From contig NZ_JACAEH010000007.1 of NCBI RefSeq assembly GCF_013388945.1, positions 1 through 64,000 on the forward strand: a DNA stretch of 64,000 nucleotides, read 5' to 3'. The notes beneath the pieces are model-generated. The model saw nothing but the letters and a program-made list of their open reading frames with translations, searched no databases and had not been told where the DNA came from. This DNA is from Nitrososphaera sp. GTDB taxonomy: Archaea; Thermoproteota; Nitrososphaeria; Nitrososphaerales; Nitrososphaeraceae. Of this stretch, positions 29,117 through 45,298 are shown piece after piece. Each line of letters starts with the position of its first letter. Position 1 is the first letter of the stretch. The position numbers and the translations under genes are program-made.

Positions 29117-30565
29117 ATGAACCTAGAGCAGTGGTGCCAGCTCGACGAGCGCATCTACGTCGCAGAGTCCGACGAGCGCTACAAGCAGTACGCCGGCCTG
29201 CCGTACAGCGAAAAAGCGATAAAAAGTCTTGCCGAGATAAAAAACACAAGCGCCAGGTCGTTTCTGGAAAACTTTGACAAGCCACGCGAGCTGGTGCTTG
29301 CGGCCATCGAAAACATTGCCGACTCGTCCACGAAAAACCTGGAACTTGAGCTGTACGATGCAAGGAACAAGAAGGTGGTCTCAAAATTAAAGTTCGCCGG
29401 CGCGCCTGTGAACTGGAGCTCGTGGCGGCAGTTCAACAGCAGGGCAAAGGACGACGGCGCCCGCAAGCAGGTGTTTGACGAATTCGTCAAAAAGACGCGC
29501 TTTGTCTCGCCCGTGATAAGAAAGAGGTTTGCAGAAATCGGCCGCGTCTATGAGAGATATGGAACAAGCAAGAAGGTTCCAAGCCCGCTTGACGGCTACC
29601 TCGAGAACGAGCGCATCACTCATTCAAAGCTGATGCAGTTTGTCAAGTCGATGGGCCAGCAGGCCAAAAAGCCGTTCCAGGAATACCTTTCCGACCTTTC
29701 GCAAAAGGTGCTCGGCAGGCAGGCAGAATACTACGACGACTTTTACTTTTTCAGAAACCGCGTCTACTCTGACATCGAGCGGCACTTTGCAAAGGTCAGG
29801 CCGCCGGACCAGGTCACCAGCCTTCTGAAGCACCTGCAGTTTGACATGTCGCGCATTGCAATAGACGCGCAGAACCGCAAGAACAAGTACCCGTCGCCGA
29901 TCTGCTTTTTCGTGCAGGTGCCTACTGACATCCGCGTCCTGTACAAGGCCGAGAGCCCGTATTTCGACCTGCAGGGCTGCTATCACGAGATGGGCCACGC
30001 CATGCACGCCTCGTCTGTCAACGAGAATGCCACGTACTGGGACCGCTACGGGATCTCGATGGGCGTCGCAGAGATATTCTCTATCTTTTTGGAACGCCTC
30101 ACAAAGAACCGGCTCTACCTGAAATCGCTTGGCGTCACAGACGAAAAGGTGCTTGACGACCTTGAAAGAAGGAACAACTTTATGGAATTGTTCTTTGTCA
30201 CGTTCTACACGGCAAACTCGCTTATGAAGGCCGAGTTCTGGCGCAAGGGCCTGTCGATGGAGCAGGCAAGCGACCTTTATGCAAAGCTGCTCAGAGAGTA
30301 CGTCGGCCTTGACGTTCCTGGCGAGTACTGGATGCTGCACCACATACTGCCTGACGCTATAATGTACGTCCCAAGCTACATGCTTGCAGCAGTGAGGGCG
30401 GCAGAACTTGAACGCCACCTGCAAACTAGGTTCGGAGAAGAATGGTGGTCCCAAGCGCAAGCCGGAGCACACCTGCGGGAAATTATGGCGCCCGGCGCCT
30501 CGATAAAACTGGACAAATTTTCCAAGATGGACCCGGGCGTGTTCATGAAGGAAATAACATCCTAG
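29117..30565 (+). CDS. M3-family oligopeptidase
   Basis: A 482-residue cytosolic zinc metallopeptidase of the thimet/oligoendopeptidase F type. The active site is YHEMGHAMHASS (HExxH) near residue 293, with the third ligand Glu expected in VAEIFSIFLERL about 26 residues on, as in M3 enzymes. Long helices before and after form the channel that admits short peptides. It is somewhat shorter than bacterial PepF (about 600 residues). It degrades peptides released by the proteasome or other proteases. Its end overlaps the next converging gene by four bases. Confidence 0.9.
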   Translation: MNLEQWCQLDERIYVAESDERYKQYAGLPYSEKAIKSLAEIKNTSARSFLENFDKPRELVLAAIENIADSSTKNLELELYDARNKKVVSKLKFAGAPVNWSSWRQFNSRAKDDGARKQVFDEFVKKTRFVSPVIRKRFAEIGRVYERYGTSKKVPSPLDGYLENERITHSKLMQFVKSMGQQAKKPFQEYLSDLSQKVLGRQAEYYDDFYFFRNRVYSDIERHFAKVRPPDQVTSLLKHLQFDMSRIAIDAQNRKNKYPSPICFFVQVPTDIRVLYKAESPYFDLQGCYHEMGHAMHASSVNENATYWDRYGISMGVAEIFSIFLERLTKNRLYLKSLGVTDEKVLDDLERRNNFMELFFVTFYTANSLMKAEFWRKGLSMEQASDLYAKLLREYVGLDVPGEYWMLHHILPDAIMYVPSYMLAAVRAAELERHLQTRFGEEWWSQAQAGAHLREIMAPGASIKLDKFSKMDPGVFMKEITS

Positions 30566-31743: not shown

Positions 31744-33159
31744 TTGTCTGGCAGGACGCTGTTTGAGAAGATCTGGGACAATCATGTTGTCGCACAGAAG
31801 GACGGCGGGCCGGCGCTTCTCTACATTGACCGCCATCTGGTGCACGAAGTCACATCCCCACAGGCGTTTGACGGCCTGCGCATGAGCAAGCGCAAGGTCA
31901 GGAGGCCGGACCTAACGTTTGCCACTATGGACCACAACGTTCCTACGACAGCACGCTCGCTGCCAATAGTCGACCAGATCTCTGCCACGCAGATAAGGAC
32001 ACTTGCAGAAAACTGCAAGGAGTTTGGAATCACGCTTTACGACATGCACAGCCCGGACCAGGGCATCGTCCACGTTATAGGGCCGGAGCTTGGGCTCACG
32101 CTACCCGGGACTACAATCGTGTGCGGCGACAGCCACACGTCGACGCACGGGGCGTTCGGGGCGCTTGCACTTGGAATCGGCACAAGCGAGGTCGAGCACG
32201 TCCTAGCCACGCAGACCATGTGGATGGACAGGCCCAGGACCTTTGCGGTAAACCTCGAGGGCCGGCCCAAAAACAAGCACGCCGTGACTGCGAAGGACAT
32301 GATACTCTACGTCATAAGGACAATAGGGACTGCCGGCGGCACAGGCTGTGTCTTTGAGTACCGCGGGAGCGCGGTACGCGACATGTCGATGGAAAACCGG
32401 ATGACTGTGTGCAACATGTCAATAGAAGGCGGGGCGCGCGCCGGGCTCGTGGCTCCTGACGAAAAGACGTTTGACTATGTAAGGGGAAAAAGGTTTGCGC
32501 CAAAGGGCGAGCAGTTTGAGCGCGCAGTCGCGCAGTGGAGAGCGCTTGCCACGGATGCCAGCGCCGCGTTTGACAGGTCCATCACGTTTGACGTAGCCCG
32601 TCTTGCACCGCAGGTGAGCTGGGGCACAAACCCCGGGATGGTCGTGAGCGTGGACGAGGCAGTTCCACATCCCGACGAGTTTGCAAAGGGCAACGAGAAC
32701 GAGAGAAAGGCTGCGGTAAGAGCGCTCGAATACATGGCCCTTGAACCGGGCACGCATGTCACCGACATCAAACTTGACAGGGTGTTCATCGGCTCGTGCA
32801 CCAACTCGCGCCTTGAAGACCTGGTGGAAGCGTCAGTCGTCGTCAAGGGGCGCAAGGTGTCGCCGGCAGTCAGGGCAATGGTGGTCCCGGGCTCGCAGCA
32901 CGTCAAGGCGGCTGCAGAAAAGCTCGGCCTCGACTCTGTGTTCAAGGAAGCGGGCTTTGAATGGCGCGAGTCTGGCTGCAGCATGTGCCTTGGCATGAAC
33001 CCTGACATTTTGTCGCCGGGGGAGCGCTGCGCAAGCACGTCCAACCGCAACTTTGAAGGCCGCCAGGGCTCGGGCGGAAGGACGCACCTTGTGAGCCCGG
33101 TGATGGCAGCAGCTGCTGCAATCGAGGGGCATTTTGTAGACGTGAGGGAGTGGCTCTAG
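31744..33159 (+). CDS. leuC: 3-isopropylmalate dehydratase, large subunit
   Basis: A 471-residue aconitase-family enzyme of leucine biosynthesis that isomerises 2- to 3-isopropylmalate. Cys ligands of the [4Fe-4S] cluster are seen in [13 protein letters not shown] and [12 protein letters not shown]. The N-terminal [12 protein letters not shown] and [18 protein letters not shown] are family-typical. The TTG at 31744 opens the frame. The small subunit gene starts at the stop codon, giving an operon. Confidence 0.95.
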
Positions 33160-33783: not shown

Positions 33784-35157
33784 ATGGCCGGGATTGTCGC
33801 CATATACAGCCACGGGACCGAGTCCAACAAGGCAGTGGTCTACCTGCTTGCGCACGCCATGAGGATGCTCCAGCACAGGGGCAAGGCACACTGGAAGATG
33901 ATGGTGGGAAACGGCTCTGCCGGCGCGGAAGGCTCGCTTCCCTCCGACGACGCGATTTTAAAGCTGGCGCACAGGGAAAAGCTGCACGGCGTCTGCGGCC
34001 TCGGCTACCTTTCGAAAAGGTCGCCGCCGTTTTCAAGCATGAACACGGTCCAGGCCGCGTTTGACGGATTTTTCGTCGACACGGAACGTCTGCACCTGCA
34101 CCCATACGTCGGCACGGCAAAGGACTCTGACTCGCTTTACAAGATTTACCACATCTTTACCACTCTTCTGAAAAAAAACCCCGAAAGGGCCGCAGAGTTT
34201 CTCGACCGGCACCTACGCGGCAACTTGGTGATAAAACTCGGCGACGAGATATACGCGTACAGGGACAGCACCGGCTTCAAGCCGCTTGTGACTGCCGTCA
34301 GGCGCGACGGGATGCTTTCGATAATCGCCTCTGAAAACTCGCTCCGCACGTCGCTTGACCTAGAGTTTGCAGACGTCAAGCCGGGCCAGCTGGTGATGGC
34401 AAGCCGGGACGAAGGGCTGCAGGTGATAGCGACAAGCCCCGGCGCAAAGCTGATGATGGACCCGTTCGAGTTCATCCGCGAGTCAAACGTGGTGGCAACC
34501 CTTGGCGGCAAGAGCATCTACTCGATACGAAAGGACATCGGCAGGGCGCAGGCAGACTTTCTCTCGCTTGACCTGAAGGTGAGCGACCTTGACTCTGCGT
34601 ATGCCGAGCCCGACTATACACGCCCGATGACGCTTGGCTTTTCCCTTGCATACCGGTCGCATTTCCGCTCGTTTGAGGTGGGAGAAGGCGTCATAAAGGA
34701 CAGGTACGACGACTCGGACAACATGATAGACTTTTCAGAGCTTGACAGCAAGAACAAGCTCCTGACGACCGGCAGGTCCCTGAAATTTGTCATGCAACCG
34801 CTGGTGCAGGGAAAAAAGATTGCCACCGTTCAGGGCACTATACAGACAAGCGCGACTGCCAGGGAGACGATATACTACCTGCGCAACGCCGGCGCAAGGC
34901 GCATAGACGTGATTGTAAGTTACGTGCCAACAGTCGACGGCCGGCAGGTGGGGCTTTACACACACAACCGCGATCTTATCGCAAACAAGTACGTGGGGGA
35001 GGTCTCGTCGATAAACGAGCTGAACCTGAACATCGCAAAGGAGCTTGGCGCCGACAACGTCTACTACAACTCGCCTTCGGTGCTTGCAAGGGGCATAGGG
35101 GTGCCGGAGCACAGCCTCTGGTTCCCCGAGTGGGTGAGGTTCCTGGACTACAAATGA
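33784..35157 (+). CDS. PurF-like protein lacking catalytic residues
   Basis: A 457-residue protein with the overall plan of amidophosphoribosyltransferase: an N-terminal Ntn glutaminase domain and a C-terminal phosphoribosyltransferase domain. The glutaminase nucleophile is missing (MAGIVAIYSHG in place of MCGI). The PRPP loop, normally a DDSxVRGTT type, reads IATVQGTIQTSATARETIYY. The rest still follows PurF order (RNAGARRIDVIVSYVPTV, GLYTHNRDLIANKYVGEVSS). It is therefore probably a pseudo-enzyme or a protein with a new activity. ATG 33784 is the first family-like start. The next gene overlaps by four bases. Confidence 0.8.
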   Translation: MAGIVAIYSHGTESNKAVVYLLAHAMRMLQHRGKAHWKMMVGNGSAGAEGSLPSDDAILKLAHREKLHGVCGLGYLSKRSPPFSSMNTVQAAFDGFFVDTERLHLHPYVGTAKDSDSLYKIYHIFTTLLKKNPERAAEFLDRHLRGNLVIKLGDEIYAYRDSTGFKPLVTAVRRDGMLSIIASENSLRTSLDLEFADVKPGQLVMASRDEGLQVIATSPGAKLMMDPFEFIRESNVVATLGGKSIYSIRKDIGRAQADFLSLDLKVSDLDSAYAEPDYTRPMTLGFSLAYRSHFRSFEVGEGVIKDRYDDSDNMIDFSELDSKNKLLTTGRSLKFVMQPLVQGKKIATVQGTIQTSATARETIYYLRNAGARRIDVIVSYVPTVDGRQVGLYTHNRDLIANKYVGEVSSINELNLNIAKELGADNVYYNSPSVLARGIGVPEHSLWFPEWVRFLDYK

Positions 35158-35468
35158 AAAGCGACCTTGAGCCTGGCCGCACAGGCGGGCCTCCCGCAAA
35201 ATCGTTACAGCTCTTGCACAATCAGATGAAGATGGAAGGGGTCTTGATAACAAAGATGGAGATGCGGCAGTACGTCGAGCGCAGGGACGAGCGCCTCGGC
35301 GACTACTCGCTTTTGACGGTGGTCGTGGAAACTGACCGGGGCGCAGTAGAAATGAAGTACGACGAGGGATTCCGCGGCCCCGACGCTCTCGAGTCTGCCG
35401 CAAAACTGCTACTGCAGTACGCCGGCCTTGCCGCGCTCATCAACAGGGCGCTCATAGAGCTGTCATAG
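35154..35468 (+). CDS. Hypothetical protein coupled to the PurF-like gene
   Basis: A 104-residue protein starting MKSDLEPGRTGGPP, with a strand-rich middle (LGDYSLLTVVVETDRGAVEMKY) and a C-terminal helix (LLLQYAGLAALINRALIEL). ATG 35154 overlaps the upstream TGA as ATGA, so translation is coupled and the protein is a candidate partner of the PurF-like protein. No family was recognised. Its end overlaps the converging HAD gene by six bases. Confidence 0.65.
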   Translation: MKSDLEPGRTGGPPAKSLQLLHNQMKMEGVLITKMEMRQYVERRDERLGDYSLLTVVVETDRGAVEMKYDEGFRGPDALESAAKLLLQYAGLAALINRALIELS

Positions 35469-36017
35469 CAGGCGCTCTGCCTCAGAAAGCGTGTTCACCC
35501 TTGCCGGCCAGCTAAAGTCCCGGTTCCAGGGCTGGTTGAAGAGTATGGCAGTCTTGGGCGCGGGAATGTCTACCAGGTTTTTTGGCGCGTCGTCGATGAG
35601 GACGTCAAACGGGTACTCGGCCTTTGGCACGGCGTCAAACACGAACAAAAGATCATCGAGGTACACGCCATTGTGGTCAAGCCACTTTGCCACGTACGCG
35701 ACCGTGGGGCGCTCCCTCTTTGTGATGACAGAGATCCTGTACCCCTTTCTGTGCAGGCGCTCGGTGATTGCGCCTATTCTGTCCTCCGTGGGCGGTATCT
35801 CCTCCCACCTTTTCTGCCACACATGGATAAAGTACTCGTAGACCTGCTCGGGCGTTATTGGAAGCACTGTTGGGATGTCCCACCTTGTTATGTCCTCCTT
35901 TGTTATTTTCGTGCCCCTGCGCCTGTTGTACTCATCGACCCAGACCAGCATCACGTCGGCAAGGACAGAATCCACGTCTATTGCAACCGTCCTGACAGCC
36001 TCTGAAATGCCGGACAT
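35463..36017 (-). CDS. HAD-superfamily 5'(3')-nucleotidase-like protein
   Basis: A 184-residue HAD phosphatase. Motif I is VAIDVDSVLADV (DxDxV), motif II lies in ISVITKRER and motif IV is the DVLIDDAPKNL Asp pair. The length and cap insertion match the NT5C-type 5'(3')-deoxyribonucleotidases and related archaeal HADs. The likely activity is removal of phosphate from nucleotides; the true substrate is unknown. It is divergent from the gene at 36104. Confidence 0.8.
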   Translation of the reverse strand: MSGISEAVRTVAIDVDSVLADVMLVWVDEYNRRRGTKITKEDITRWDIPTVLPITPEQVYEYFIHVWQKRWEEIPPTEDRIGAITERLHRKGYRISVITKRERPTVAYVAKWLDHNGVYLDDLLFVFDAVPKAEYPFDVLIDDAPKNLVDIPAPKTAILFNQPWNRDFSWPARVNTLSEAERLL

Positions 36018-36103
36018 GACGCGGGGATTTGGGGGCGGACTTTATTTATACGATGTCAAAACTACACATACTTTTATAGAACATCTCGCTATATGTTGAG
36101 ACA

Positions 36104-36412
36104 TTGAACCTGCAGCGGCTTGCATGGAAGTGCACGCAGGAGGTCATAACCACGCTTGGCGAGCCTACAATGCAGTCACTTGAATGGCACATGAGCCAGT
36201 CAGGTATTTCGATGGTCCCGGAGAAGTTTGACATCAAGAGGTTCCACGCCGCGCTATACGAGCTCATGGGGGATGGCGCGGACATCATTATGGAGCTTGT
36301 AGCCAAGCAAATGGCAGAAAAACTAGAGATTTCAGCCGATTACGACAAGGGCCTGATCGGCATCGAGAGGGTCCTGAGGCTCTTCGAGATTGCCGAAAAG
36401 GTGAAGGGCTAG
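36104..36412 (+). CDS. Small helical hypothetical protein
   Basis: A 102-residue soluble protein rich in helices (NLQRLAWKCTQEVITTLG, RFHAALYELMGDGADIIMEL, GIERVLRLFEIAEKV). TTG 36104 lies about 30 bases after cttttatag. Coupling to the following membrane protein gene is tight (stop and start overlap as TAGTG). I recognise no family. Confidence 0.6.
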   Translation: MNLQRLAWKCTQEVITTLGEPTMQSLEWHMSQSGISMVPEKFDIKRFHAALYELMGDGADIIMELVAKQMAEKLEISADYDKGLIGIERVLRLFEIAEKVKG

Positions 36413-37236
36413 TGCAGACAACAGCGTTTGATCCGCAAGTCATCCGGCGATGGCTCACTGTCACGCTCGCAGTCGCCCTGGTCGCTCTCAACCTTCCGTT
36501 AATACTCGCTGATGGTGAAGGAAGGGTGTTTTTTGGCAACTGGATACTGAACGCTACTTCTGCCGGCGCGTTTGCACTGGCAGCAGTTGTGGCGCTGCGA
36601 CAAGGCAAGTCCGGCCTGTACGGAAAGGCGCAGGCTGCGTTTGCGCTTGCGCTTGGACTCTGGCTTGCCGGCGAGCTTTTGTGGACCTACTACGAGCTCG
36701 GGCTTGGCATCGACAACCCCTTCCCGTCGCTTGCAGACGCTGCCTGGCTTGCCGGGTACGCGCCTGCCGCGTACTATCTTTTCAGGATTTACCGGTTCTT
36801 TGGAGCAGGGCAGAACCGCCTTGCGCTTGCCGTCTCCGTCGCGACTGCCGCCTTTGTGGCCTACAGCGCGATAGAACTGGTGCTGGTCTCCGCGGACCCG
36901 GAAGGGGACGCCCTCTCGCTTGTCGTGTCTCTCCTTTATGTGGCAGTTGACGGGCTGCTGATAGTGCCGGCAGTCCTCGTGCTTTTGCGCCTCAAAAGCG
37001 GCAAGTTGACAGGGGTGCCCTGGTTCCTGCTGTCGATATCAATGCTGCTTTTTGCCGCAGCAGACCTGGGCTTTGCCTATCATTCGGCAATAGGCGCCCC
37101 TGAAAACGACTGGGTGTGGGACCCGCTCTACAACGCAGCTTACATCATGATGGCGGCCACGCTTTTCTGGCACAACAGGTTCTTCATCTACGACAGGGAC
37201 GCCGCCAGGAAGACGTGGCAGCAAGAAAACCGGTAA
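36412..37236 (+). CDS. Polytopic membrane protein
   Basis: A 274-residue protein with about seven to eight membrane helices separated by short loops (LTVTLAVALVALNLPLIL, AGAFALAAVVALRQG, LSLVVSLLYVAVDGLLIVPA, FLLSISMLLFAAADLGFAY). The arrangement recalls the membrane sensor domains found at the N-termini of signalling proteins, but no signalling domain follows. It is coupled to the upstream small gene. It ends two bases before the 3' end of tRNA-Pro on the other strand. Confidence 0.75.
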   Translation: MQTTAFDPQVIRRWLTVTLAVALVALNLPLILADGEGRVFFGNWILNATSAGAFALAAVVALRQGKSGLYGKAQAAFALALGLWLAGELLWTYYELGLGIDNPFPSLADAAWLAGYAPAAYYLFRIYRFFGAGQNRLALAVSVATAAFVAYSAIELVLVSADPEGDALSLVVSLLYVAVDGLLIVPAVLVLLRLKSGKLTGVPWFLLSISMLLFAAADLGFAYHSAIGAPENDWVWDPLYNAAYIMMAATLFWHNRFFIYDRDAARKTWQQENR

Positions 37237-37237
37237 A

Positions 37238-37311
37238 TGGGGCCGGCCGGATTCGAACCAGCGACCTCCAGCGCCCGAGGCTGGCATCCTGCCAAGCTAG
37301 ACAACGGCCCC
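37238..37311 (-). tRNA. tRNA-Pro(CGG)
   Basis: The acceptor stem pairs GGGGCCG with CGGCCCC. The anticodon arm is CCAGC-CTCGGGC-GCTGG (anticodon CGG) and the T-arm GCTGG-TTCGAAT-CCGGC has one G-U pair. The discriminator is A, the span is 74 nt and no intron is needed. The CCA end is not encoded. Confidence 0.95.
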
Positions 37312-37456
37312 CAGAAAACCAGTGCCCGGCAACCCCATTATATCTCTTGTACTTGCAAAAAATGCGTTTGTAGTACGCTGCACTGCGGGGGACGCCGTTG
37401 TAGTGCAATATCGTGCACAGTACCCGTGTCGCTAAAATAGCAAAATCGCCACTGTT

Positions 37457-37711
37457 ATGGCGGACATGCCTGCGATAAGCAAGTGCGACGCCGACACGAT
37501 GTACCTGGCTCTCAGCGAGATAGGCATCAACATGAGGGAGCTTGACAAGAAAGATCCCTCCCTGCAGTATCTCCAGGAGCTCTATGCGTTTCTTCTGTAT
37601 GCACAGCTTGTCGCATGGAGGTCAGGCAGAGGCCACCGCCAGCTGATAAGGATAGTCAACCAGACCCTGGTAGGCCCAAAGCAGCAGAAAACGATAAGGG
37701 CGAAAAAGTAG
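37457..37711 (+). CDS. Small hypothetical protein
   Basis: An 84-residue mainly helical protein (DTMYLALSEIGINMRELD, YLQELYAFLLYAQLVAW) with a basic C-terminus. It has no Cys pattern or membrane segment. The ATG at 37457 begins MADMPAISKCDA; ATG 37466 is an alternative. It converges on a zinc-finger gene 11 bases away. Function is unknown. Confidence 0.55.
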   Translation: MADMPAISKCDADTMYLALSEIGINMRELDKKDPSLQYLQELYAFLLYAQLVAWRSGRGHRQLIRIVNQTLVGPKQQKTIRAKK

Positions 37712-37722
37712 ATCTCTTTGGT

Positions 37723-37920
37723 CTAGTAGGAATGCTCGTCTGCCTTGTGCGTCCTGAGCAGCTTGAAGCTTGAAAACGGGCTGCCGCACTTGTCGCACTG
37801 CCACTTGTTTGCCCTTGCGTCCCTGTACGTGTCAAACGCCATCCTGCCTACCTGGTACGTCCTTGTCAGCGCGTCGTACCGCACGGGATTGTGGTTCAGC
37901 CTGTACTTGATGCCACTCAT
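37723..37920 (-). CDS. Small C2H2 zinc-finger protein
   Basis: A 65-residue protein with one C2H2 finger at its C-terminus (CDKCGSPFSSFKLLRTH, then KADEH). The N-terminal part is basic and aromatic. C2H2 fingers are scarce in most prokaryotes, but single-finger micro-proteins occur in archaea. It could bind nucleic acid or protein. ATG 37920 was chosen; 37923 and 37944 are alternatives. Confidence 0.7.
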   Translation of the reverse strand: MSGIKYRLNHNPVRYDALTRTYQVGRMAFDTYRDARANKWQCDKCGSPFSSFKLLRTHKADEHSY

Positions 37921-38081
37921 CATCACACGCAGTTTTGGGCGCACGACTAAAAAGTAGATTGGTGGGGTATTACAGAATTCGTTTCCATAGTCTGGCTCGC
38001 TGAATGAAAACCGTGTGACTAATAGGGGATAACGGCTTCACCAGTATCCATAACGAGAAACTTTTTATACAAACACCCCTA

Positions 38082-38160
38082 TTACAACGCTACAGCCAAC
38101 CCCTACTGTACGTCACGTGCATTCGGGCCCGAAAGTCGAAGGATGAGTAGGGCCTGACAA
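38082..38160 (+). ncRNA. Candidate structured small RNA (H/ACA-like?)
   Basis: A TATA-like ctttttatac (38051-38060) predicts a start near 38082. The transcript would fold with a 7-bp base stem (CCCTACT 38101-38107 with AGTAGGG 38146-38152), an inner TTCGGGCCCGAA palindrome (38122-38133), an ACA at 38157-38159 four bases past the stem, and a T-run after 38161. No protein frame of substance is seen. The ACA placement recalls archaeal H/ACA guides, but a k-turn is not clear. Confidence 0.4.
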
Positions 38161-38172
38161 CTTTTCCAAAGC

Positions 38173-38310
38173 TTAGTGCAGGACCGTCATCGCGTCCTTT
38201 TCTTCGTCGCCAAACCTCCTTGCTGAAAAGAGGTCAAACTCGTGCAGGATGCTGTATGTGTCGGCGCACTCGTCGCACTTGCACCTTCTCGGCGGCTCGG
38301 TTGCTCTCAT
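38173..38310 (-). CDS. 45-residue Cys-containing micro-protein
   Basis: A short frame from ATG 38310 encodes 45 residues beginning MRATEPPRRCKCDECADTYS. Three closely spaced Cys occur near the N-terminus (CKCDEC) and the rest is helical and acidic (LHEFDLFSARRFGDEEKD). It has the base and codon character of real genes here and fills an otherwise empty stretch. With only three Cys, a metal site might need a dimer. Function is unknown. Confidence 0.5.
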   Translation of the reverse strand: MRATEPPRRCKCDECADTYSILHEFDLFSARRFGDEEKDAMTVLH

Positions 38311-38383
38311 GCGTTTTCGTTGCAATCCTACTGATAAAAGGTAGCTCAATTTAGATCCGTGGCGTGAGCTAGCTGAATATAGA

Positions 38384-38539
38384 TCACTTGCCCTGCGAGC
38401 TGAACATCAGCTCGCAGTCGCCGGAGCAAAAGTGGCGCGTCTTTTTCCCTTCTTTGACGGTTATCGGGTCGCTGCATGCTTGCCCGCAGGTGGCGCAGTT
38501 TGGCACAGGTGCCCGGACGCACCCGGCATATTTGCACAT
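38384..38539 (-). CDS. 51-residue zinc-binding micro-protein
   Basis: A 51-residue protein starting MCKYAGCVRAPVPNCATCGQ. It has seven to eight Cys and a His in a layout like a TRASH or MYM-type finger (CATCGQAC, HFCSGDCELMF). ATG 38539 is chosen because it lies beyond the upstream gene's stop; the frame remains open to 38593. It is adjacent to the next gene on the same strand (four-base gap) and may share its transcript. Roles in metal sensing or handling are possible. Confidence 0.65.
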   Translation of the reverse strand: MCKYAGCVRAPVPNCATCGQACSDPITVKEGKKTRHFCSGDCELMFSSQGK

Positions 38540-38543
38540 TTCG

Positions 38544-39047
38544 TCACTGCCCGTACGCGGAGGCAAGGGCCCTGTCGACGTCGCTTTCTGCAAGCCCGAA
38601 AAACAAGAGCGCGTCGGCTATCTTTGGCTTTTGCAAACGAGCAGAGCCTGCAGCCACTGCGACGTAGGCGTCAGACGCTTCCACAAGCACCAGGCGCGCA
38701 TGCGCAGTCCATGCCTGCAGGCCGCCCTGTTCGTGCTTTATCAAGTGGACGAGCTTGGCAAAAGCTGCGGCAATTGCAACCCTGTATTTCTGGAGCAGGG
38801 TCTTGGCAGGCGAGTCTGCAAGCGACGGAACGAGCGCGCAGATCCTGTACTGGTATTCGTCGAGGTTCTTTGCGACGCTGAACGCGTCGGCAAAGGCCTG
38901 CGAGCTCTTTTTAGCGGCCCTTGCGTCTATTGAAACGCCCCCAAAGGCGCCGCCAAACTCGCTGACTGTAAAGTCCAGCGTCGTTATCCCGTCGCCGGCC
39001 AGAAATTTCCTGCACCTAGTCTGCGACATGACCGCGTCTACGAGCAT
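38544..39047 (-). CDS. Hypothetical protein
   Basis: A 167-residue protein with a strand-rich start (GDGITTLDFTVSEFGGAFGG) and a long helical C-terminal half (TLLQKYRVAIAAAFAKLVHL, SDAYVAVAAGSARL). ATG 39047 lies about 27 bases from a tttatacac element, giving a leaderless start clear of the upstream gene. The open frame to 39224 would overlap that gene. I recognise no family; it may be co-transcribed with the zinc micro-protein downstream. Confidence 0.6.
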   Translation of the reverse strand: MLVDAVMSQTRCRKFLAGDGITTLDFTVSEFGGAFGGVSIDARAAKKSSQAFADAFSVAKNLDEYQYRICALVPSLADSPAKTLLQKYRVAIAAAFAKLVHLIKHEQGGLQAWTAHARLVLVEASDAYVAVAAGSARLQKPKIADALLFFGLAESDVDRALASAYGQ

Positions 39048-39087
39048 GACGCCAAGTCCTGCGCCTGCCGTGTATAAACCGAGCCGG

Positions 39088-39291
39088 TCAGGCCGCCTGG
39101 GAGCTTGCAGCAGCACTGTTTTCCTGCGCGCCTTTTCTTGATTGCAGGTAGCCCAGGTTGTCGTCGAGCTCTGTCTTGATGTTGTGGATGTACCTGATGG
39201 CGTCGTCGATGTTGCCCTTTCCAAGCGCTACTTCGAGTCCCTTGAAGTAGACCCTGAGGTCGTTGGCAACTATCTCCACATCTTTCGCCAT
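39088..39291 (-). CDS. Small helical hypothetical protein
   Basis: A 67-residue protein: MAKDVEIVANDLRVYFKGLE, then a predicted second helix (DDAIRYIHNIKTELDDNLGYL) and a disordered Ala/Ser/Gln tail. The helical hairpin form suggests a protein-protein interaction module. ATG 39291 gives this compact form; upstream codons to 39348 look non-coding. Function is unknown. Confidence 0.6.
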   Translation of the reverse strand: MAKDVEIVANDLRVYFKGLEVALGKGNIDDAIRYIHNIKTELDDNLGYLQSRKGAQENSAAASSQAA

Positions 39292-39442
39292 GCAGTTTTT
39301 TCGCCGCAAAATTACAAAAGCGATCTGGTGGCTCGCTCTGTACGACATCTAGGCAGGAAAGACAAGAGGGTTCAGTCTACCAGAGTGCGCTTATAGAGAG
39401 ATATCTGATAAGTCTTTAATTTAAAAAACGAAAGTATCTTGT

Positions 39443-40657
39443 ATGGAAGTCAAGGTGTTGGCAATGCTGCTGGGGTCCGTCCTCCTGGCAGGGGTTGTCC
39501 TGACCGGTGCAAGACCTGCATACGCAGAAAATTATACGTGCGCAGCAACCCTGGACGGCTCGCAGGAGGTCCCTCCTGTCGAGACCGACGGCGCGGGAAC
39601 GGCGTCTCTGACGTTTGATTCCGCGACAAACACGCTTGCCTGGGAGATAGAATTCTCAGGACTGTCCGGGCCTGCGACTGCGGCGCATTTCCACGGCCCT
39701 GCAGTTAACGGGACCAACGCCGGAATACTTGTAGACATTGGCGGTGCCTCAGACGTCTCGTCGCCCCTGACAGGCTCCATAGTTGTCGGATCCAATTCCG
39801 CGACCTACCTGCTTGCCGGGCAGATGTATATAAACATACACACCTCTGCAAATCCAAGTGGCGAGATTCGCGGGCAGATAGCCTGCGAGGCTGTGGGAGA
39901 AATGAAGACTGCTGCTCTGACGTACGGCGAAGAAGAGCACGAGATCCAGTATTCGATTACCAACGGAACGCTGACCGAACTGACCGGCGACGCAGATAAC
40001 AAGATGATAACTGCGCAGATATCTGCCGCGCATGACGGCGAGCTGAAAATCCAGCTTCCAAGGGAATTGATAGATTCTGCCGCAGGAGAGCAGGACCTTG
40101 ACTACATAGTCTTTGTCGACGAGATGGAAGTGTACGCCGAGGACGACTTTGGGGCGGACGTGAGGACACTCACTATTCCGTTCACGGAAGGAAGCGCGCT
40201 TGTAGACATCGTCAGCGCGTCTCCGCCGGCAGCCGAGCCTGGCCTGCCCGCAACCACTCACACGGTGTCAGTCGCAGGCGCAAACATAGACATCGCCGTA
40301 AGGAGCTCGTCGACGATAACCGCGTTCTCGCTGGACGAGGGAAGCAAGACCGTCTCGTTTGCAGTCGCAGGTGAAGAAGGGACGCCGGGCGTGACTGAAA
40401 TCACAATCGGAAGAGTGCTTGAAGGGCCGTACACAGTAATGGTCGACGGCGACGTGACAACCGACTTTGAAGTCGACGAAAGTTCAGGAGAGAGCGTGAT
40501 AAGGCTGACGTACGTGCACGGCATCGGCGAGGTGACCATCACGGGTGCCAACGTCGTCCCAGAATTCCCGCTTGCCGCAGTGGCGCTTGCGGCAGCCATA
40601 GTCGGCGTCGTCGCAGTCACGGCAAGGTACGGCAAGTTCAGCTTCCTGCCAAAGTAG
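39443..40657 (+). CDS. Exported CHRD-domain protein with PEFG-like C-terminal anchor
   Basis: A 404-residue surface protein. The signal peptide covers residues about 1-28 (ending AYA). A CHRD-type domain follows (YTCAATLDGSQEVPPVETDG, AAHFHGPAVNG, MYINIHTSANPSGEIRGQI). Beta-rich repeats come next. The C-terminus has VVPEFPLAAVALAAAIVG and a basic tail, the PEFG-type sorting signal known in thaumarchaea. Processing at the PEFG-like site probably attaches it to the cell envelope. It has a good TATA (tttaattta) about 26 bases before ATG 39443. Binding partners are unknown; CHRD domains occur in extracellular proteins. Confidence 0.85.
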   Translation: MEVKVLAMLLGSVLLAGVVLTGARPAYAENYTCAATLDGSQEVPPVETDGAGTASLTFDSATNTLAWEIEFSGLSGPATAAHFHGPAVNGTNAGILVDIGGASDVSSPLTGSIVVGSNSATYLLAGQMYINIHTSANPSGEIRGQIACEAVGEMKTAALTYGEEEHEIQYSITNGTLTELTGDADNKMITAQISAAHDGELKIQLPRELIDSAAGEQDLDYIVFVDEMEVYAEDDFGADVRTLTIPFTEGSALVDIVSASPPAAEPGLPATTHTVSVAGANIDIAVRSSSTITAFSLDEGSKTVSFAVAGEEGTPGVTEITIGRVLEGPYTVMVDGDVTTDFEVDESSGESVIRLTYVHGIGEVTITGANVVPEFPLAAVALAAAIVGVVAVTARYGKFSFLPK

Positions 40658-40745
40658 GAAGCTGGACCGTCCCCCTTTTTCTGTCATGAAAAACCGGTAG
40701 CAGACAGAGAGACACTGTCTTGCCTAGGATACGAACATCGCTTTG

Positions 40746-40997
40746 TCAGCCTGATTGCCAGTTGCCCAGCTCTTCTGCGACAATCATGGTGGAGCACGAC
40801 CTGACATGCGCAATCAGGTGAAACTTTCTGAGAATGCTTGTTATCCCGTCATTTGAATCGGCTCTGAGCTTGGCTACTATGTCATAGATTCCTGAAACTC
40901 CGACAGCCTCAGAAACTCCCGAGATGGACCTCATGCTGAACAGCACTGATTTCTCTGCACCGATGTCGCAGTTCAACAGGACAAAAGCAAGCGTCAT
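40746..40997 (-). CDS. Stand-alone AsnC/Lrp-type effector (RAM) domain
   Basis: An 83-residue RAM domain without DNA-binding part: AFVLLNCDIGAEKSVL, VSEAVGVSGIYDIVAKLRAD, SCSTMIVAEE. It resembles the protein at 13343-13591, so the two are paralogues. ATG 40997 opens the domain; an upstream frame to 41054 adds no domain residues. It may bind an amino acid and modulate a full-length Lrp protein. Confidence 0.78.
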   Translation of the reverse strand: MTLAFVLLNCDIGAEKSVLFSMRSISGVSEAVGVSGIYDIVAKLRADSNDGITSILRKFHLIAHVRSCSTMIVAEELGNWQSG

Positions 40998-41091
40998 GAT
41001 CAGGTTGTGCATCCCCGCTATAAAAGGCCGCTTGCAGCTCTTCAAGCTACGCAAGACGGATCCGTGCCCTGTTTGAAAGCCATATAAGCCG

Positions 41092-41292
41092 ATGCGGGGT
41101 ACAGGCGCAGTGGCAAAACCATTTCAAACAAGGCCTGCAAAGGCGGGAACAAAGGGCGGCACAGGTTTTTGCGTGTCATGCGCGGCGGTGGCAACAACAG
41201 AGGCTCTGTTCAAACTCGAAGGCGCGATAGTCATTCAGAGGTACTGTGACAGCTGCCTTCCTCAGGCGCGGTACGAGACTTCAGGATACTGA
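41092..41292 (+). CDS. Small zinc-binding protein
   Basis: A 66-residue protein with two CxxC sites (GFCVSCAAVATTEALF and RYCDSCLPQ), a zinc-ribbon layout, preceded by a basic N-terminal tail. It is followed after one base by a 31-residue zinc micro-protein on the same strand. It is the first of the Cys-rich genes in this accessory stretch. Function is unknown. Confidence 0.6.
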   Translation: MRGTGAVAKPFQTRPAKAGTKGGTGFCVSCAAVATTEALFKLEGAIVIQRYCDSCLPQARYETSGY

Positions 41293-41293
41293 G

Positions 41294-41389
41294 ATGGCTC
41301 TGACTTTTCTGCGCAGGGACGTCTGCCGGAATTGTGGCTTGAGGGATGTCCGGGCCGGCAATTACTGCGACGGCTGCGCGAGGGCCTGA
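41294..41389 (+). CDS. 31-residue zinc-ribbon micro-protein
   Basis: The frame from ATG 41294 to TGA 41387-41389 encodes MALTFLRRDVCRNCGLRDVR and eleven more residues with a second CxxC (YCDGCARA). The two CxxC pairs, about 12 residues apart, could hold one zinc ion with little other structure. It starts one base after the previous gene, suggesting co-translation. It is one of the smallest plausible genes in the window. Confidence 0.5.
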   Translation: MALTFLRRDVCRNCGLRDVRAGNYCDGCARA

Positions 41390-41391
41390 CG

Positions 41392-41781
41392 TTACCGGTC
41401 AATTCTCGAGCCGTCGACTGCGTCCATTATCACCTGGGCGGCGTGGCTGCCAAAGTTTGTCTTGCAGTAATTTTCGTTTCGCAGTTTCGAGTCCAGCCTG
41501 CCCGCCCTTATCAGGTCAGAGATCCTGTTTACGGCGGCAAGAAAGTTCATCGACGACGTCCACGTGAGTATTATCTCGCATTTGTCGCACACCTGCATCC
41601 TTGCGTTGCGCGCAAATATCTCTCCACAGAATATACAGGTGCCGTATACCATCGACTTGCCGGAGCGCGGGGCGCCTATGCCAAAATGAACCATGTTGAA
41701 ACACCCCCTGCACAGGTGCTTTGCGCATGTCAGGCAGGTGTGGTATTCCTCGCCTTTGCTACAGATTTCGCACAGGACCAA
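41392..41781 (-). CDS. Cys-rich zinc-finger protein
   Basis: A 129-residue protein. The first 70 residues carry several Cys pairs (LCEICSKGEEYHTCLTC, LCRGCFNMVH, GTCIFCGEIF, VCDKCEII), resembling B-box or double zinc-ribbon arrangements. The C-terminal part is helical and basic. It follows the 41786 gene on the same strand after four bases, so co-transcription is likely. Function is unknown. Confidence 0.65.
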   Translation of the reverse strand: MVLCEICSKGEEYHTCLTCAKHLCRGCFNMVHFGIGAPRSGKSMVYGTCIFCGEIFARNARMQVCDKCEIILTWTSSMNFLAAVNRISDLIRAGRLDSKLRNENYCKTNFGSHAAQVIMDAVDGSRIDR

Positions 41782-41785
41782 TCGA

Positions 41786-42433
41786 TCACTGTTCTTTGAA
41801 CCGTCGGTACACCTTATCCTGGAACTCGAGAAAATTGATTTCCACGCTGGAGCCTTTCAACGATTGCGTTTTTGCTGCAAGGCGCGACGGGCGGCAGTCA
41901 TAGCCATAGGAAGACGAGTAATACACGCTGCGCAGGCTGGGGTGCGCTGCCAAGATGTCTCTGATTGCGCTGAAGTACTCTTGCAACGGCTCGGCACCGG
42001 TCGCTTTCCTTCCCGCGTTGTTGTTTTGCATGCCTACGGCCACCAGCTCTTCTGTCGCGCGACTGAATATGCAGACATCGAAAACGTGCTCCTGATTTGA
42101 CCTGCCCCGGATCTTGTTTGCCATTACAAACTTGTACATTGCAGGAGTAAATTTCGACGACAGGAGCACCGCAAACCTGAACCTTGAAAAAGAGTCCTCG
42201 CAGTCAAGGAACGTCCGCCTCAGCTGGATAAGCGACTGGTCGTTAAGCCCGGATATCAACGAAGGCTTTTTGCTTTTTCCCCGGGTCTCCCTTCTGCCTG
42301 CGACGGCTTCGCTGCAGTTGCATTCTTCTGCTATGATTTCAAGGATCTGAAAAGGGATGTGGTAATTTGCAAGGCGGGACTCGATCTCCTGCCTCTCCTT
42401 CGGGGAAAGCCGCTGTTCAACTGCAGACAAGTG
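41786..42433 (-). CDS. Hypothetical protein
   Basis: A 215-residue protein starting MHLSAVEQRLSPKERQEIE. It has a helical first third and an alpha/beta middle with VFDVCIFSRATEELVAVGMQ and SLRSVYYSSSYGYDC, which could be a small nuclease-like or ligand-binding fold. No firm motif can be named. ATG 42433 lies about 27 bases from ggtttaatag, so it is preferred over 42448. Confidence 0.55.
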   Translation of the reverse strand, partial: HLSAVEQRLSPKERQEIESRLANYHIPFQILEIIAEECNCSEAVAGRRETRGKSKKPSLISGLNDQSLIQLRRTFLDCEDSFSRFRFAVLLSSKFTPAMYKFVMANKIRGRSNQEHVFDVCIFSRATEELVAVGMQNNNAGRKATGAEPLQEYFSAIRDILAAHPSLRSVYYSSSYGYDCRPSRLAAKTQSLKGSSVEINFLEFQDKVYRRFKEQ

Positions 42434-42490
42434 CATTCTATACAACATGACGACTATTAAACCCGGGTATTTGGCCGCATCAATTTCGCA

Positions 42491-42514
42491 TGTTTATTAG
42501 GCACGCAGTGCCTA
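42491..42514 (+). promoter_or_regulatory. TATA element overlapped by a perfect palindrome
   Basis: tgtttattagg (42491-42501) is the TATA region. TAGGCAC-GCA-GTGCCTA (42498-42514) is a perfect 7-3-7 inverted repeat between TATA and the expected start site (about 42520) of the leaderless TFB-like gene. Its place is that of a repressor operator. Confidence 0.55.
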
Positions 42515-42521
42515 CGACATC

Positions 42522-42839
42522 ATGTCACAAAGCAATAACTCGACCTTGTTGAAAGTTAACGAGGGCATCAATGAATTGTGCGACAAGCTAAAGCTTACAT
42601 CTTTTGTGAGGGAGAGGTGCCTTGAAATGTCCGGAAAACTGGAAAGAGAAGGCGGCGCAGGCCTGACCGGCTCTACCACAAACGCGGTTGCCTGCAGCAT
42701 TGTATCAGTGGTCCACGAAGAAGCGCATCGGCGGGGCAGAGTGCCCATGCACCTTCCTGACAAGATGATAGGAAAAGTGTTTGGTCTGGACGGCGGGGAT
42801 ATAGCCCGGGGCAAGCACATAATGAACTCGCGAAGGTGA
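42522..42839 (+). CDS. Single-cyclin-repeat TFB-like protein
   Basis: A 105-residue protein that looks like one cyclin repeat of TFIIB/TFB: a helix with VNEGINELCDKLKL, then SFVRERCLEMSGKLE, STTNAVACSIVSVVHEEAHR and HLPDKMIGKVFGLDGGDIAR, the last comparable to the recognition helices of TFB repeats. It has no zinc ribbon, no B-finger and no second repeat. It could compete with TFB or act as an adaptor or regulator. Full-length TFB is at 49312. The leaderless start is ATG 42522. Confidence 0.6.
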   Translation: MSQSNNSTLLKVNEGINELCDKLKLTSFVRERCLEMSGKLEREGGAGLTGSTTNAVACSIVSVVHEEAHRRGRVPMHLPDKMIGKVFGLDGGDIARGKHIMNSRR

Positions 42840-43009
42840 CATTGGAGGTAGTGAACGGCCTCGGGAGACCTCGTCTTAAAATCTGGCTCTGCCGCTGAAA
42901 GCGTAGTGGCAGAAGGCATTTCGCCAGAATAGCTGCAGCACTGCGCTTGGCAGAGTTTTGCTGGGAGTTATATGTCCGTACGGTCATCATTATTCTGTGA
43001 GCATGGCAA

Positions 43010-43192
43010 ATGTTTTCTTTATCCGCCTGGGCCATGCCCATAGTCAATGCGCTGGGGCCGTCCGGCTACCCTGCGCTTCAGAACTTTCTGTGGCACGTAT
43101 TGGACAAGAACCGGCTCTTCTCGTCAGGTAAGAGGATATTCTTTATCCTTCTTGCTGCTGTCACTTTTGAGATGCTTGAGGAAGCAATCTAG
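43010..43192 (+). CDS. Possible small hydrophobic protein
   Basis: A 60-residue frame (MFSLSAWAMPIVNALGPSGY) with a hydrophobic C-terminal stretch (RIFFILLAAVTFEMLEEAI) that could be a membrane helix. A TATA-like gttatatg lies near 42971. Support is modest: no similarity was recognised, and another short frame overlaps it. Confidence 0.35.
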   Translation: MFSLSAWAMPIVNALGPSGYPALQNFLWHVLDKNRLFSSGKRIFFILLAAVTFEMLEEAI

Positions 43193-43280
43193 CATGCGTC
43201 GGTAGGCATTTCTGCGGCGTCTGAATTCGCAGGGGTTTAAGTTTGCCTGAGCTTTACAGGTAAATCCGCCGACAATTCTG

Positions 43281-43490
43281 TCATGAATGGGAAATCTCTT
43301 TGAACGAAGGCGACGCTCCGACAAACCTGGCAATTTTGTGCTTTAGAAAAACTTCGTGCTCTTTGCCGCAGTCGTTGCATCGGAGTCGAATTCTGCCGGA
43401 AACACTTCTGTATTTTGGCTTTATTGTGTCATCTTCTGCAACGCATACCATCACGTTGCCGCAATCGCAGGAAAATGACTGCTTTACCAT
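43281..43490 (-). CDS. Small zinc-ribbon protein
   Basis: A 69-residue protein starting MVKQSFSCDCGNVMVCVAED. The Cys pairs CDCG and CNDCGKEHEVF form a ribbon-like site with strands between (IRLRCND). ATG 43490 sits about 27 bases from ccttaag. It is one of a group of Cys-rich small genes in 41-45 kb. Confidence 0.55.
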   Translation of the reverse strand: MVKQSFSCDCGNVMVCVAEDDTIKPKYRSVSGRIRLRCNDCGKEHEVFLKHKIARFVGASPSFKEISHS

Positions 43491-43604
43491 GTGTCTGTTT
43501 GGCATGCCGGCCTCTTAAGGTTTGATAGAGTATGACGCGTGCAGAAAGTGGCGGGCCCAGGGGGTCCAGGAGTCTTTATAGAACACGCAGAGGTGACAAA
43601 AGCA

Positions 43605-43853
43605 TTGAAAGGTAACAGGCTGCCTTATAAAAAAGAAGGCGTGTACATCCTGGCGCGCAGCAGCACCCGCCCCGAATACCATATTGCAAAAATCATAAGC
43701 GAGGGCGAGACGTCCAACCCGAGTTCGGTTGGAAATGCGAGCACGAAATGCCTGCGCTATTACAAGAGCCACGAATATTCGATAGCGGAAAAGGAGCCCC
43801 GGCGCGACGAGATTTGCCGCAAATGCCAGTCGATGAGGCATGCCGGCGGCTGA
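43605..43853 (+). CDS. Small basic protein with a C-terminal Cys pair
   Basis: An 82-residue protein with a strand-rich middle (GVYILARSSTRPEYHIAKII) and a late CRKCQSMRHAGG. TTG 43605 is about 30 bases after tttatag; GTG 43593 is an alternative. The frame is open to 43539, but that part covers a tRNA-Arg-like fragment and looks non-coding. Function is unknown. Confidence 0.5.
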   Translation: MKGNRLPYKKEGVYILARSSTRPEYHIAKIISEGETSNPSSVGNASTKCLRYYKSHEYSIAEKEPRRDEICRKCQSMRHAGG

Positions 43854-43877
43854 AACCGTGCCTGCCAATCATTGTGT

Positions 43878-44168
43878 CTAGATCTCACTGGTGCCCTTCC
43901 AGCCCATCTTTTTCGCCCCTGCCTGCCACGACTTGGCAGCCGCCTCTGTCGCGAAATCTTCGGTGTACACTTCGCTCATCGAATCCCTCACGTTGAACGG
44001 GCCTCTCCACAAATTCAGCTTTGCGTCTTTGTGTTTCGCCTTTATGTGGTCGTTTATCGACATGCGGTGCTCTGCGCTGGTCTTGTAGTCTTTGGCGATT
44101 ATGTAATGCCCGCAGACGCCGCAATAGGCTGCAATCGCTGCAATGCGCTTGCCTTCTTTGCTCGCCAC
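43878..44168 (-). CDS. Zinc-finger protein (C2H2-like)
   Basis: A 96-residue protein. The first half has a zinc-finger-like element YCGVCGHYIIAKDYKTSAEH followed by HIKAKHKD, giving Cys-Cys-His-His spacing with a long insert. The second half contains VRDSMSEVYTEDFATEAAA. The GTG at 44168 opens the frame. Possible nucleic-acid binding; unknown function. Confidence 0.6.
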   Translation of the reverse strand: MASKEGKRIAAIAAYCGVCGHYIIAKDYKTSAEHRMSINDHIKAKHKDAKLNLWRGPFNVRDSMSEVYTEDFATEAAAKSWQAGAKKMGWKGTSEI

Positions 44169-44252
44169 CGTGTTCTCCTGCCTTTACTCCTTGAGCCAGC
44201 CACCACTAATAATTCATCGCTCTGTCATCAAGCCGCAGGTTTCGGATCGCGG

Positions 44253-44585
44253 CTATTGAAACTCTGGAAAATGTTTGCCAAGCATATTGATGCCTTGCCT
44301 GGTGATCGATACTTCATGGAAGTCCGCGTGATTTCTTAGAAAACCCCTGTCTATCATCCAGCGCGTGATTTTGTAGAGGTTGCGCCTGTAGCTGTCGCCT
44401 GCATTAATGCGCAGATATTTCTCCAATTCAAGCTCGTTGCCCCAGTAATTCTTTGCTTTTATGTATTCGACGACGTTTGTCATGAGCACGGTTCTTCCCA
44501 CCACCCCTCCTTTCATCTCGTATATCCCACGCAGGAGCCAAGGCCACAGGGTTTCATTGTCTTCCGGACTCCACCTTTCTGACAC
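44253..44585 (-). CDS. Winged-helix-like hypothetical protein
   Basis: A 110-residue protein. The middle reads TNVVEYIKAKNYWGNELELE and YLRINAGDSYRRNLYKITRW, followed by FHEVSITRQGINML, consistent with a winged-helix fold. It may be a small DNA-binding regulator. Its start lies 56 bases from the tRNA-Arg-like repeat that marks the left edge of the HicAB unit. Confidence 0.55.
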   Translation of the reverse strand: MSERWSPEDNETLWPWLLRGIYEMKGGVVGRTVLMTNVVEYIKAKNYWGNELELEKYLRINAGDSYRRNLYKITRWMIDRGFLRNHADFHEVSITRQGINMLGKHFPEFQ

Positions 44586-44640
44586 AGGGATTGAATGCAG
44601 AACCGGATATTTTAGGCAGCTTCCCGTTCAGAACAAAGTA

Positions 44641-44663
44641 CGGGCCCAGAGGGACTCGGACCC
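44641..44663 (-). repeat. Displaced 3' fragment of tRNA-Arg (attachment-site-like direct repeat)
   Basis: cgggcccagagggactcg (44641-44658) is identical to 45224-45241, the 3' end of tRNA-Arg(GCG). With one mismatch the match runs to 22 of 23 bases. Both copies face the same way and enclose about 580 bases with hicA and hicB. This is what remains when an element integrates into a tRNA 3' end. Confidence 0.7.
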
Positions 44664-44694
44664 GGATGGGTTCGGGTCTTGTAGAAAAATACAG

Positions 44695-44922
44695 CTAATT
44701 GGGGATCTCTATTACGATCTTTCTGTCCTTCTTTGCCTGCTCTTCAAGTGTATCCAATACCAGCTGGATGGCTTCGGTCATGTTCTCTTTCAATTCTTCA
44801 ATAGTTTCGCCTTCGCTGATGGCTCCGGGAAGCTCTATGCATTGCCCTGTATATCCTCCTTCGGGCGCTTCCTGGATTCTTATCGTGAATTTTCTATTAC
44901 CGACGTTCTTCTTAAGGGCCAT
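44695..44922 (-). CDS. hicB: HicB-type antitoxin
   Basis: A 75-residue HicB protein: a partial RNase H-like fold with FTIRIQEAPEGGYTGQCIEL, PGAISEGETIEELKENMTEA and a helix IQLVLDTLEEQAKKD. No C-terminal DNA-binding domain follows, so it belongs to the short type. HicB binds and neutralises HicA. It lies 41 bases after hicA in the usual toxin-first order, in visibly AT-richer DNA than the flanks. Confidence 0.9.
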   Translation of the reverse strand: MALKKNVGNRKFTIRIQEAPEGGYTGQCIELPGAISEGETIEELKENMTEAIQLVLDTLEEQAKKDRKIVIEIPN

Positions 44923-44963
44923 CTATGGGATATAGCCTCGTTTGATTATAAAAGCTTAGCATG

Positions 44964-45179
44964 CTATAACTCGTTGAGAAACTCTTCCTTGGATATCCCT
45001 GCTTGGTCGAGTATCGACTTGAGGGTCGGTTCCTTTATCGGATCGTGCCTTGGAACCGTGGCATACCTTCCGTCCTGATGCATCAAGATGATGTGGCTGC
45101 CGCGCTGCCGGACTATTCTGAAGCCTTTGCGATCAAGTACTTTCAAGACATCGCGGTAGCTATGATTGCGTAAGCTCAC
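44964..45179 (-). CDS. hicA: HicA-type mRNA interferase toxin
   Basis: A 71-residue dsRBD-like protein: YRDVLKVLDRKGFRIVRQRG, then SHIILMHQDGRYATVPRHD and LKSILDQAGISKEEFL. The catalytic His follows the Gly-Ser in RQRGSHIIL. HicA cleaves mRNA and halts translation. GTG 45179 lies 27 bases from a catatac element; a longer frame that runs through tRNA-Arg was rejected. With hicB it forms a standard toxin-antitoxin pair. Confidence 0.92.
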   Translation of the reverse strand: MSLRNHSYRDVLKVLDRKGFRIVRQRGSHIILMHQDGRYATVPRHDPIKEPTLKSILDQAGISKEEFLNEL

Positions 45180-45223
45180 TCCTTGTAGGACTGAAAAAGT
45201 TGTATATGAATATGTACGGAAAG

Positions 45224-45298
45224 CGGGCCCAGAGGGACTCGAACCCTCGACCAACTGCTCCGCAGGCAGCCATTCTGTCCAAGCTGAACTATGGGCCC
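45224..45298 (-). tRNA. tRNA-Arg(GCG)
   Basis: The acceptor stem pairs GGGCCCA with TGGGCCC, with discriminator G. The anticodon arm is GCTGC-CTGCGGA-GCAGT (anticodon GCG) and the T-arm is GAGGG-TTCGAGT-CCCTC. The span is 75 nt with no intron. Its 3' end is repeated at 44641, which suggests that it served as an integration site. hicA starts 45 bases downstream of its 3' end. Confidence 0.95.

Follow-up and report, generated by a model that had tools for sequence, protein, structure and literature searches.

A 583-bp hicAB unit between copies of the tRNA-Arg(GCG) 3′ end in Nitrososphaera, a probable integrase-less cassette

In the genome of a soil ammonia-oxidising archaeon of the genus Nitrososphaera, a 583-bp segment that contains a hicA-hicB toxin-antitoxin pair is enclosed by the tRNA-Arg(GCG) gene on one side and a second copy of the 3′ end of this same gene on the other. 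We think it rather probable that this segment is an att-bounded cassette without an integrase of its own, which entered the 3′ end of tRNA-Arg(GCG) through an integrase acting in trans. The initial annotation of the DNA stretch analysed here (64,000 nucleotides, hereafter the window) had left two options side by side, namely a minimal unit mobilised in trans and the remnant of a larger element. We favour the former because the unit appears to have passed between species with both of its ends. Given that it does not encode an integrase, we do not class it as an autonomous integrative element.

The intact tRNA-Arg(GCG) gene is located on the minus strand (45223..45298), with its 3′ end at 45223 and facing left. 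The sequence of this 3′ end, CGGGCCCAGAGGGACTCGAACCC (45224-45246), which we treat as the attB/attL-like core, recurs as CGGGCCCAGAGGGACTCGGACCC at 44641..44663 (attR-like core, given for the plus strand). As originally described, the two copies agree in 22 of 23 positions, the first 18 of which are identical, have the same orientation and start 583 bp apart. By chance, only 3.7e-7 matches of 22/23 or better are expected in 64 kb, considering both strands and the base composition, and the left copy is the sole non-tRNA copy in the 1.99-Mb assembly (≤2 mismatches over 18 nt). An intact tRNA gene at one end and a displaced copy of its 3′ end in the same orientation at the other is the structure by which tRNA-targeted elements of the Campbell type, integrated by tyrosine integrases, are recognised. 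A weak further core copy at 43552 of the window, with 7 mismatches in 23, was within chance and was dropped. Directly outside the left core, the 15 nt GTTCAGAACAAAGTA (44626..44640, plus strand) are identical to those beside a degenerate core copy in the related genome G014 (G014:C1, at about 574370) and possibly mark where another, older element on the left side ends, so that the left copy may join such an older element and not virgin chromosome. Inside the unit, GGGTTCGGGTC (44669..44679, plus strand) is close to the inverse of the core's T-loop half. Motifs resembling GGGTTCGAG, the inverse of this half, accompany the core on its right side in 8 of the 20 copies from the genus, compared with a background of 3%, as well as in the window at 44669, and are candidate recombinase half-sites.

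Between the two core copies there are only hicB and hicA, both on the minus strand, and no integrase, as the initial annotation had it. The hicA product, of the mRNA interferase toxin family, is a HicA-domain protein that matches PF07927 (HicA_toxin) over its full length with an E-value of 3e-18 and 66.1 bits (cut-off 27), and also matches 1whz and 6hpb. Mechanical gene calling gives an ORF of 119 aa that extends through the tRNA; the start is likely the GTG at 45179, giving a protein of 71 aa (44964..45179) that is 94% identical in the related genome G007. The adjoining antitoxin-like hicB (44695..44922; 75 aa; 97% identical in G007) matches part of the domain model PF15919 (HicB_lk_antitox) with an E-value of 1.7e-5 and 25.4 bits, for a cut-off of 27. 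The unit end that adjoins the tRNA 3′ end (45180..45222, plus strand) probably contains the hicA promoter. With a GC content of 45.8%, compared with 55.4% for the window, the unit is the lowest among the sampled 559-bp stretches, and the AT-richness that had been suspected for the enclosed DNA is therefore stronger than claimed. A hicB relative at another locus in G012 retains the same GGGTTCRGGTC end. In IMG/VR, we found no relatives of HicB or of the G008 integrase described below, and a viral origin was rejected: the single viral contig bearing the core proved to carry an ordinary tRNA-Met within a phage tRNA cluster. A different tRNA is concerned in G005, where the 3′ end of tRNA-Met recurs in two copies, one beside a hicAB relative and the other beside a second, partial hicB (L042:8052, 8894, 12104), with tRNA-Met itself 3 to 4 kb off in the same orientation; an intact hicA ORF was not seen in this relative, and the second 3′-end copy, having 1 mismatch in 12, is weak alone.

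The hicAB unit is also present, with equal spacing, at tRNA-Arg(GCG) of G007, which is the only other instance among genus members with a readable site. Homology between the two loci starts at the repeat (44640/44641): identity is 87% from the repeat to the tRNA and 27.5% over the 40 bases outside, which is random-like. At synonymous sites, hicA and hicB together show 36 differences in 92 sites (pS 0.39), compared with 165 in 241 for two chromosomal genes nearby (Fisher p 1.5e-6) and a weighted chromosomal pS of ~0.64 over 51 reciprocal ORF pairs. Although low, the value of 0.39 is not extremely so, and it is matched by a few short ORFs, among them probable antisense shadows. Judged by chromosomal genes, the window species is no more distant from G014 and G015 than from G007, and G014 has only a distant hicAB, at another locus (pS 0.71-0.81). 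Since the divergence of hicAB is clearly below that of chromosomal genes and the outer flanks are unrelated, the unit was probably exchanged between lineages after the species split, and the identical end beside hicB in both genomes argues that the small unit predates this exchange. Because the window and G007 do not match each other to the left of the repeat either, the chromosomal half of this junction has to be deduced.

Across relatives, the tRNA-Arg(GCG) site is a hotspot of changing gene content. Upstream of the tRNA, the DNA is conserved in the genus, beginning with a small membrane-protein-like gene and continuing through scpA and scpB and beyond; downstream, it differs from locus to locus in all 13 that were compared. 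The island so formed has tRNA-Pro(CGG) as its left anchor, and the interval between the two tRNAs measures 8 kb in the window, compared with 22.6 to 35.4 kb in G015, G011, G014 and G008, with largely different content among these five, making the window locus a short version of a hypervariable island. Additional core copies in the same orientation are present on the 3′ side of tRNA-Arg in G007, G011, G014, G015 and G008, and a scan of the opposite strand of five islands revealed none, so that all copies share the orientation of the tRNA. G014 and G015 are syntenic for ~13.6 kb from tRNA-Pro. The synteny stops at 17007 (oriented position in G014), 23 bp short of a core copy at 17030; other copies in G014 are located at 30245 and, in degenerate form, at 32127, with the tRNA at 33932. 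An interval that varies from 8 to 35 kb between fixed sites, together with the stacked core copies of G014, is the make-up of an additive island. A 13-kb segment of G014 resembled an integrated element at first sight, but 5.5 kb of this segment is matched by homologous DNA at C29 of the window's genome; the block concerned is hydrogenase/complex-I-like (G014:C1 about 571500-589500, in the tRNA-Arg island, and G000:C29:3560-8998, L117) and 77.7% identical over 5.5 kb. Part of the segment may therefore be ordinary chromosome relocated by rearrangement, a process that adds to the variability of the island.

The initial annotation had proposed comparing the same tRNA-Arg locus in relatives for either an empty site with one repeat copy or a larger element with an integrase. 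The empty site was not found, the left flank of the window (35000-44640) being joined to tRNA-Arg in no relative and several contigs breaking there. Many of the relatives are MAGs whose contigs end exactly at the tRNA-Arg site, which suggests repeats or population heterogeneity at this position. In G034:C71, G075:C346 and G086:C322, and likewise in G004:C9, G006:C8 and G012:C4, the contig end falls within the tRNA-Arg(GCG) gene or no more than about 130 bp from its 3′ end.

The larger element was found in G008, where a tyrosine recombinase (PF00589; PHROG integrase) lies ~64 bp from the tRNA-Arg(GCG) 3′ end and an exact 15-mer direct repeat of the tRNA end follows 27.8 kb away, so that G008 apparently holds a complete 27.8-kb integrase-bearing element at this attB (L049:6773-8119 and G008:C1:148395-176182). 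Integrases of the G008 type are located 64-337 bp from tRNA-Arg(GCG) in 12 genomes of the family (G008, G074, G071, G066, G068, G092, G087, G063, G029, G019, G069 and G076), and comparison of coordinates places them on the 3′ side of the tRNA in 12/12. In at least four of these (G068, G019, G069 and G076), the integrase at the site is decayed and contains stops. A second, distant integrase type adjoins tRNA-Arg(GCG) in G003; this integrase-like protein was missed by Pfam and was assigned via homology to PF00589-positive relatives. An integrase of the G003 type lies next to a tRNA-Ala gene in the window's own genome (L147, G000:C9). In the window, G007, G011, G014 and G015, the island showed no integrase, and the window's assembly yielded no close G008-type integrase, the best match being weak (E 1e-10). 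The hicAB unit is therefore probably immobile today, unless a matching integrase enters the cell.

Further segments without an integrase were seen in G015, where two 1.6-kb segments (L183:6100-7699 and L055:8774-7195) carry unrelated cargo between matching ends, namely ~75 nt at 93% identity on the left and ~130 nt at 80% on the right, and look like cargo-swapped non-autonomous elements. In G034, contig C46 (L173) contains an array of same-orientation cores at 95, 4631, 5175, 7665 and 10588, and comparable arrays are present at L172, L174, L178 and L179. Some of these cores have inverted-repeat arms, and the arrays divide segments of one or a few metabolic genes, among them those for an SDH-like flavoprotein, a SnoaL-like protein, a reductase and an alcohol dehydrogenase. 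The SnoaL-like gene (84% nucleotide identity) is found near cores in three places in two genera (L037 and L054 of G015, and L173 of G034), and its orientation varies.

Copies of the core away from tRNA genes, as they occur in G014, G015, G004 and G034, with 17 model matches across many contigs in G004, raise the question of whether the left copy is one of a family of dispersed repeats, MITEs or terminators resembling the tRNA end, with no integration involved; some of the copies even have inverted-repeat arms on both sides. Since this made a dispersed repeat the strongest alternative, we compared the flanks of 58 core sites (40 nt left and 50 nt right) with a shuffled null. Among the Nitrososphaera copies, 11 flank-sharing pairs scored far above the null, and all of them (11/11) were one-sided, with the other side at background level; for example, G015_1702/G015_2874 scored 75 on the left and 12 on the right, and G015_2631/G015_2156 scored 8 on the left and 90 on the right. 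A repeat family should share both flanks, yet the copies of the window's genus share one, a pattern which fits attL, attR, attP and attB sites and not a repeat or terminator family, and which likewise disagrees with a stand-alone promoter or terminator piece, the reading that the initial annotation had named as contrary to its own. Moreover, some left arms recur beside real tRNA-Arg genes: the left flank of G014_1021 matches the DNA next to tRNA-Arg in G003, and a core copy of G031 shares its left arm with a G086 tRNA. A different arm family is found in G034, G004, G086 and G002, in which left and right arms are mutual inverted repeats, found both in combination and alone, and in which one left arm directly adjoins the real tRNA-Arg of G086; the count of one-sided pairs in these four genomes depends on the threshold, because at lower scores the full sites have both arms in common. 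Considering also the uniform direction of the copies in the five islands and the lack of any other non-tRNA copy in the window's assembly, we judge it quite improbable that the left copy is such a repeat.

Even less credit is due to vertical inheritance in which the tRNA end was duplicated locally, a history that would make hicAB an old resident of the locus and would account for the same arrangement in two species (G000 and G007). The unit is absent at this site in the other genus members with a readable site, and the low synonymous divergence relative to the chromosome and the unrelated left flanks largely refute this origin; the pairing of hicAB and the repeat in all relatives with a normal phylogeny, which had been named beforehand as evidence against integration, was thus not what we saw. 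The possibility that a larger integrase-bearing element, comparable to that of G008, was deleted internally, leaving an addiction-kept hicAB between its att copies, is the main rival, even though we consider it unlikely. Integrase-bearing elements do occupy tRNA-Arg(GCG), some of them with the decayed integrases described above, and G014 and G015 contain segments that are decayed or arranged in tandem. Tandem integration and the loss of integrases after integration have been documented in archaea (PMC8371274). However, the left end by hicB is the same in G007 and the window despite the unrelated outer flanks, the divergence is too low for vertical descent, so that a small unit with this end would predate the move, and the integrase-less segments of G015 show that common ends with swapped cargo exist in the genus.

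The integrases at the tRNA, the unit in G007 and the flank test together support the footprint of tRNA-directed site-specific integration that had been proposed for this locus, and a cassette mobilised in trans could have formed it as follows. The tRNA-Arg(GCG) 3′ end (CGGGCCCAGAGGGACTCGAACCC) would serve as attB for a family of tyrosine integrases, as their positions in relatives suggest. A DNA with the same core, either a small circle in its own right or borne on a larger carrier element, would have recombined at this 3′ end through the tyrosine integrase of another element acting in trans, after which one core copy would complete the tRNA and the other mark the far end at 44641. In agreement with the divergence test, the hicAB unit, complete at either end, would then have passed from one Nitrososphaera lineage to another. 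With each further use of the site, small segments would accumulate into an additive island from tRNA-Pro(CGG) to tRNA-Arg(GCG), of the kind present in relatives, and HicA/HicB, judging from the known behaviour of its family, would retain and stabilise the otherwise cargo-less unit by addiction. More tentatively, and with considerable doubt, one could imagine that Nitrososphaeraceae run an integron-like cassette economy on the tRNA-Arg(GCG) 3′ end and its look-alikes, in which small segments lacking an integrase, each with the core and one or a few cargo genes, would be captured, stacked and passed between species through shared tyrosine integrases acting in trans, with hicAB as the smallest cassette seen, stabilising the array. 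Toxin-antitoxin cassettes are known in superintegrons.

If the proposed explanation is true, it provides for soil ammonia-oxidising archaea, in which genetic manipulation is difficult, a defined gene-capture site whose sequence is known, along with a candidate family of integrases and a natural cassette of minimal size. The att-bounded movement of archaeal toxin-antitoxin pairs and the trans mobilisation of integrase-less segments would also become testable. For annotators, it would mean that small changes in gene content and contig breaks at tRNA-Arg(GCG) probably reflect site-specific recombination.

Several known systems resemble the locus in part. The fGI-2 islands of Methylophilaceae, which are additive flexible genomic islands, are marked by repeats of the final 20 bp of tRNA-Lys and range upward from 330 bp and 1 CDS (PMC10872708); like them, our locus has direct repeats of one tRNA 3′ end and highly variable adjacent cargo segments, but it differs in its archaeal host, in the use of tRNA-Arg(GCG), in a unit that consists of a toxin-antitoxin pair only and in the one-sided flank sharing at the core. 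A survey of integrated elements in Thaumarchaeota, whose main text does not contain the term 'tRNA-Arg', describes the targeting of tRNA 3′ ends, att sites with a median of 17 bp and a large cryptic class (PMC6563490); the elements it presents are complex and multigene, whereas hicAB is a 583-bp unit without an integrase. CALINs, which are integrase-less arrays of integron cassettes that can be mobilised in trans (PMC11389934), share with the unit the lack of an integrase and the possible trans mobilisation, but the site of the hicAB unit is a tRNA 3′ end and not a folded attC. Tycheposons, as named in PMC11389934 and PMC10872708, are tRNA-bordered cargo elements of 4-200 kb with a tyrosine recombinase; the hicAB unit has the tRNA border in common with them and carries no such recombinase. 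With chromosomal HicAB modules, it shares a full-length HicA family protein, the hicA-hicB order and the compact two-gene organisation, but its HicB has only 75 aa and a partial domain match, and its toxin is predicted from sequence. As far as we found, what is new is therefore the combination: an archaeal, integrase-less unit consisting only of a toxin-antitoxin pair, which was probably exchanged between species at a dedicated tRNA.
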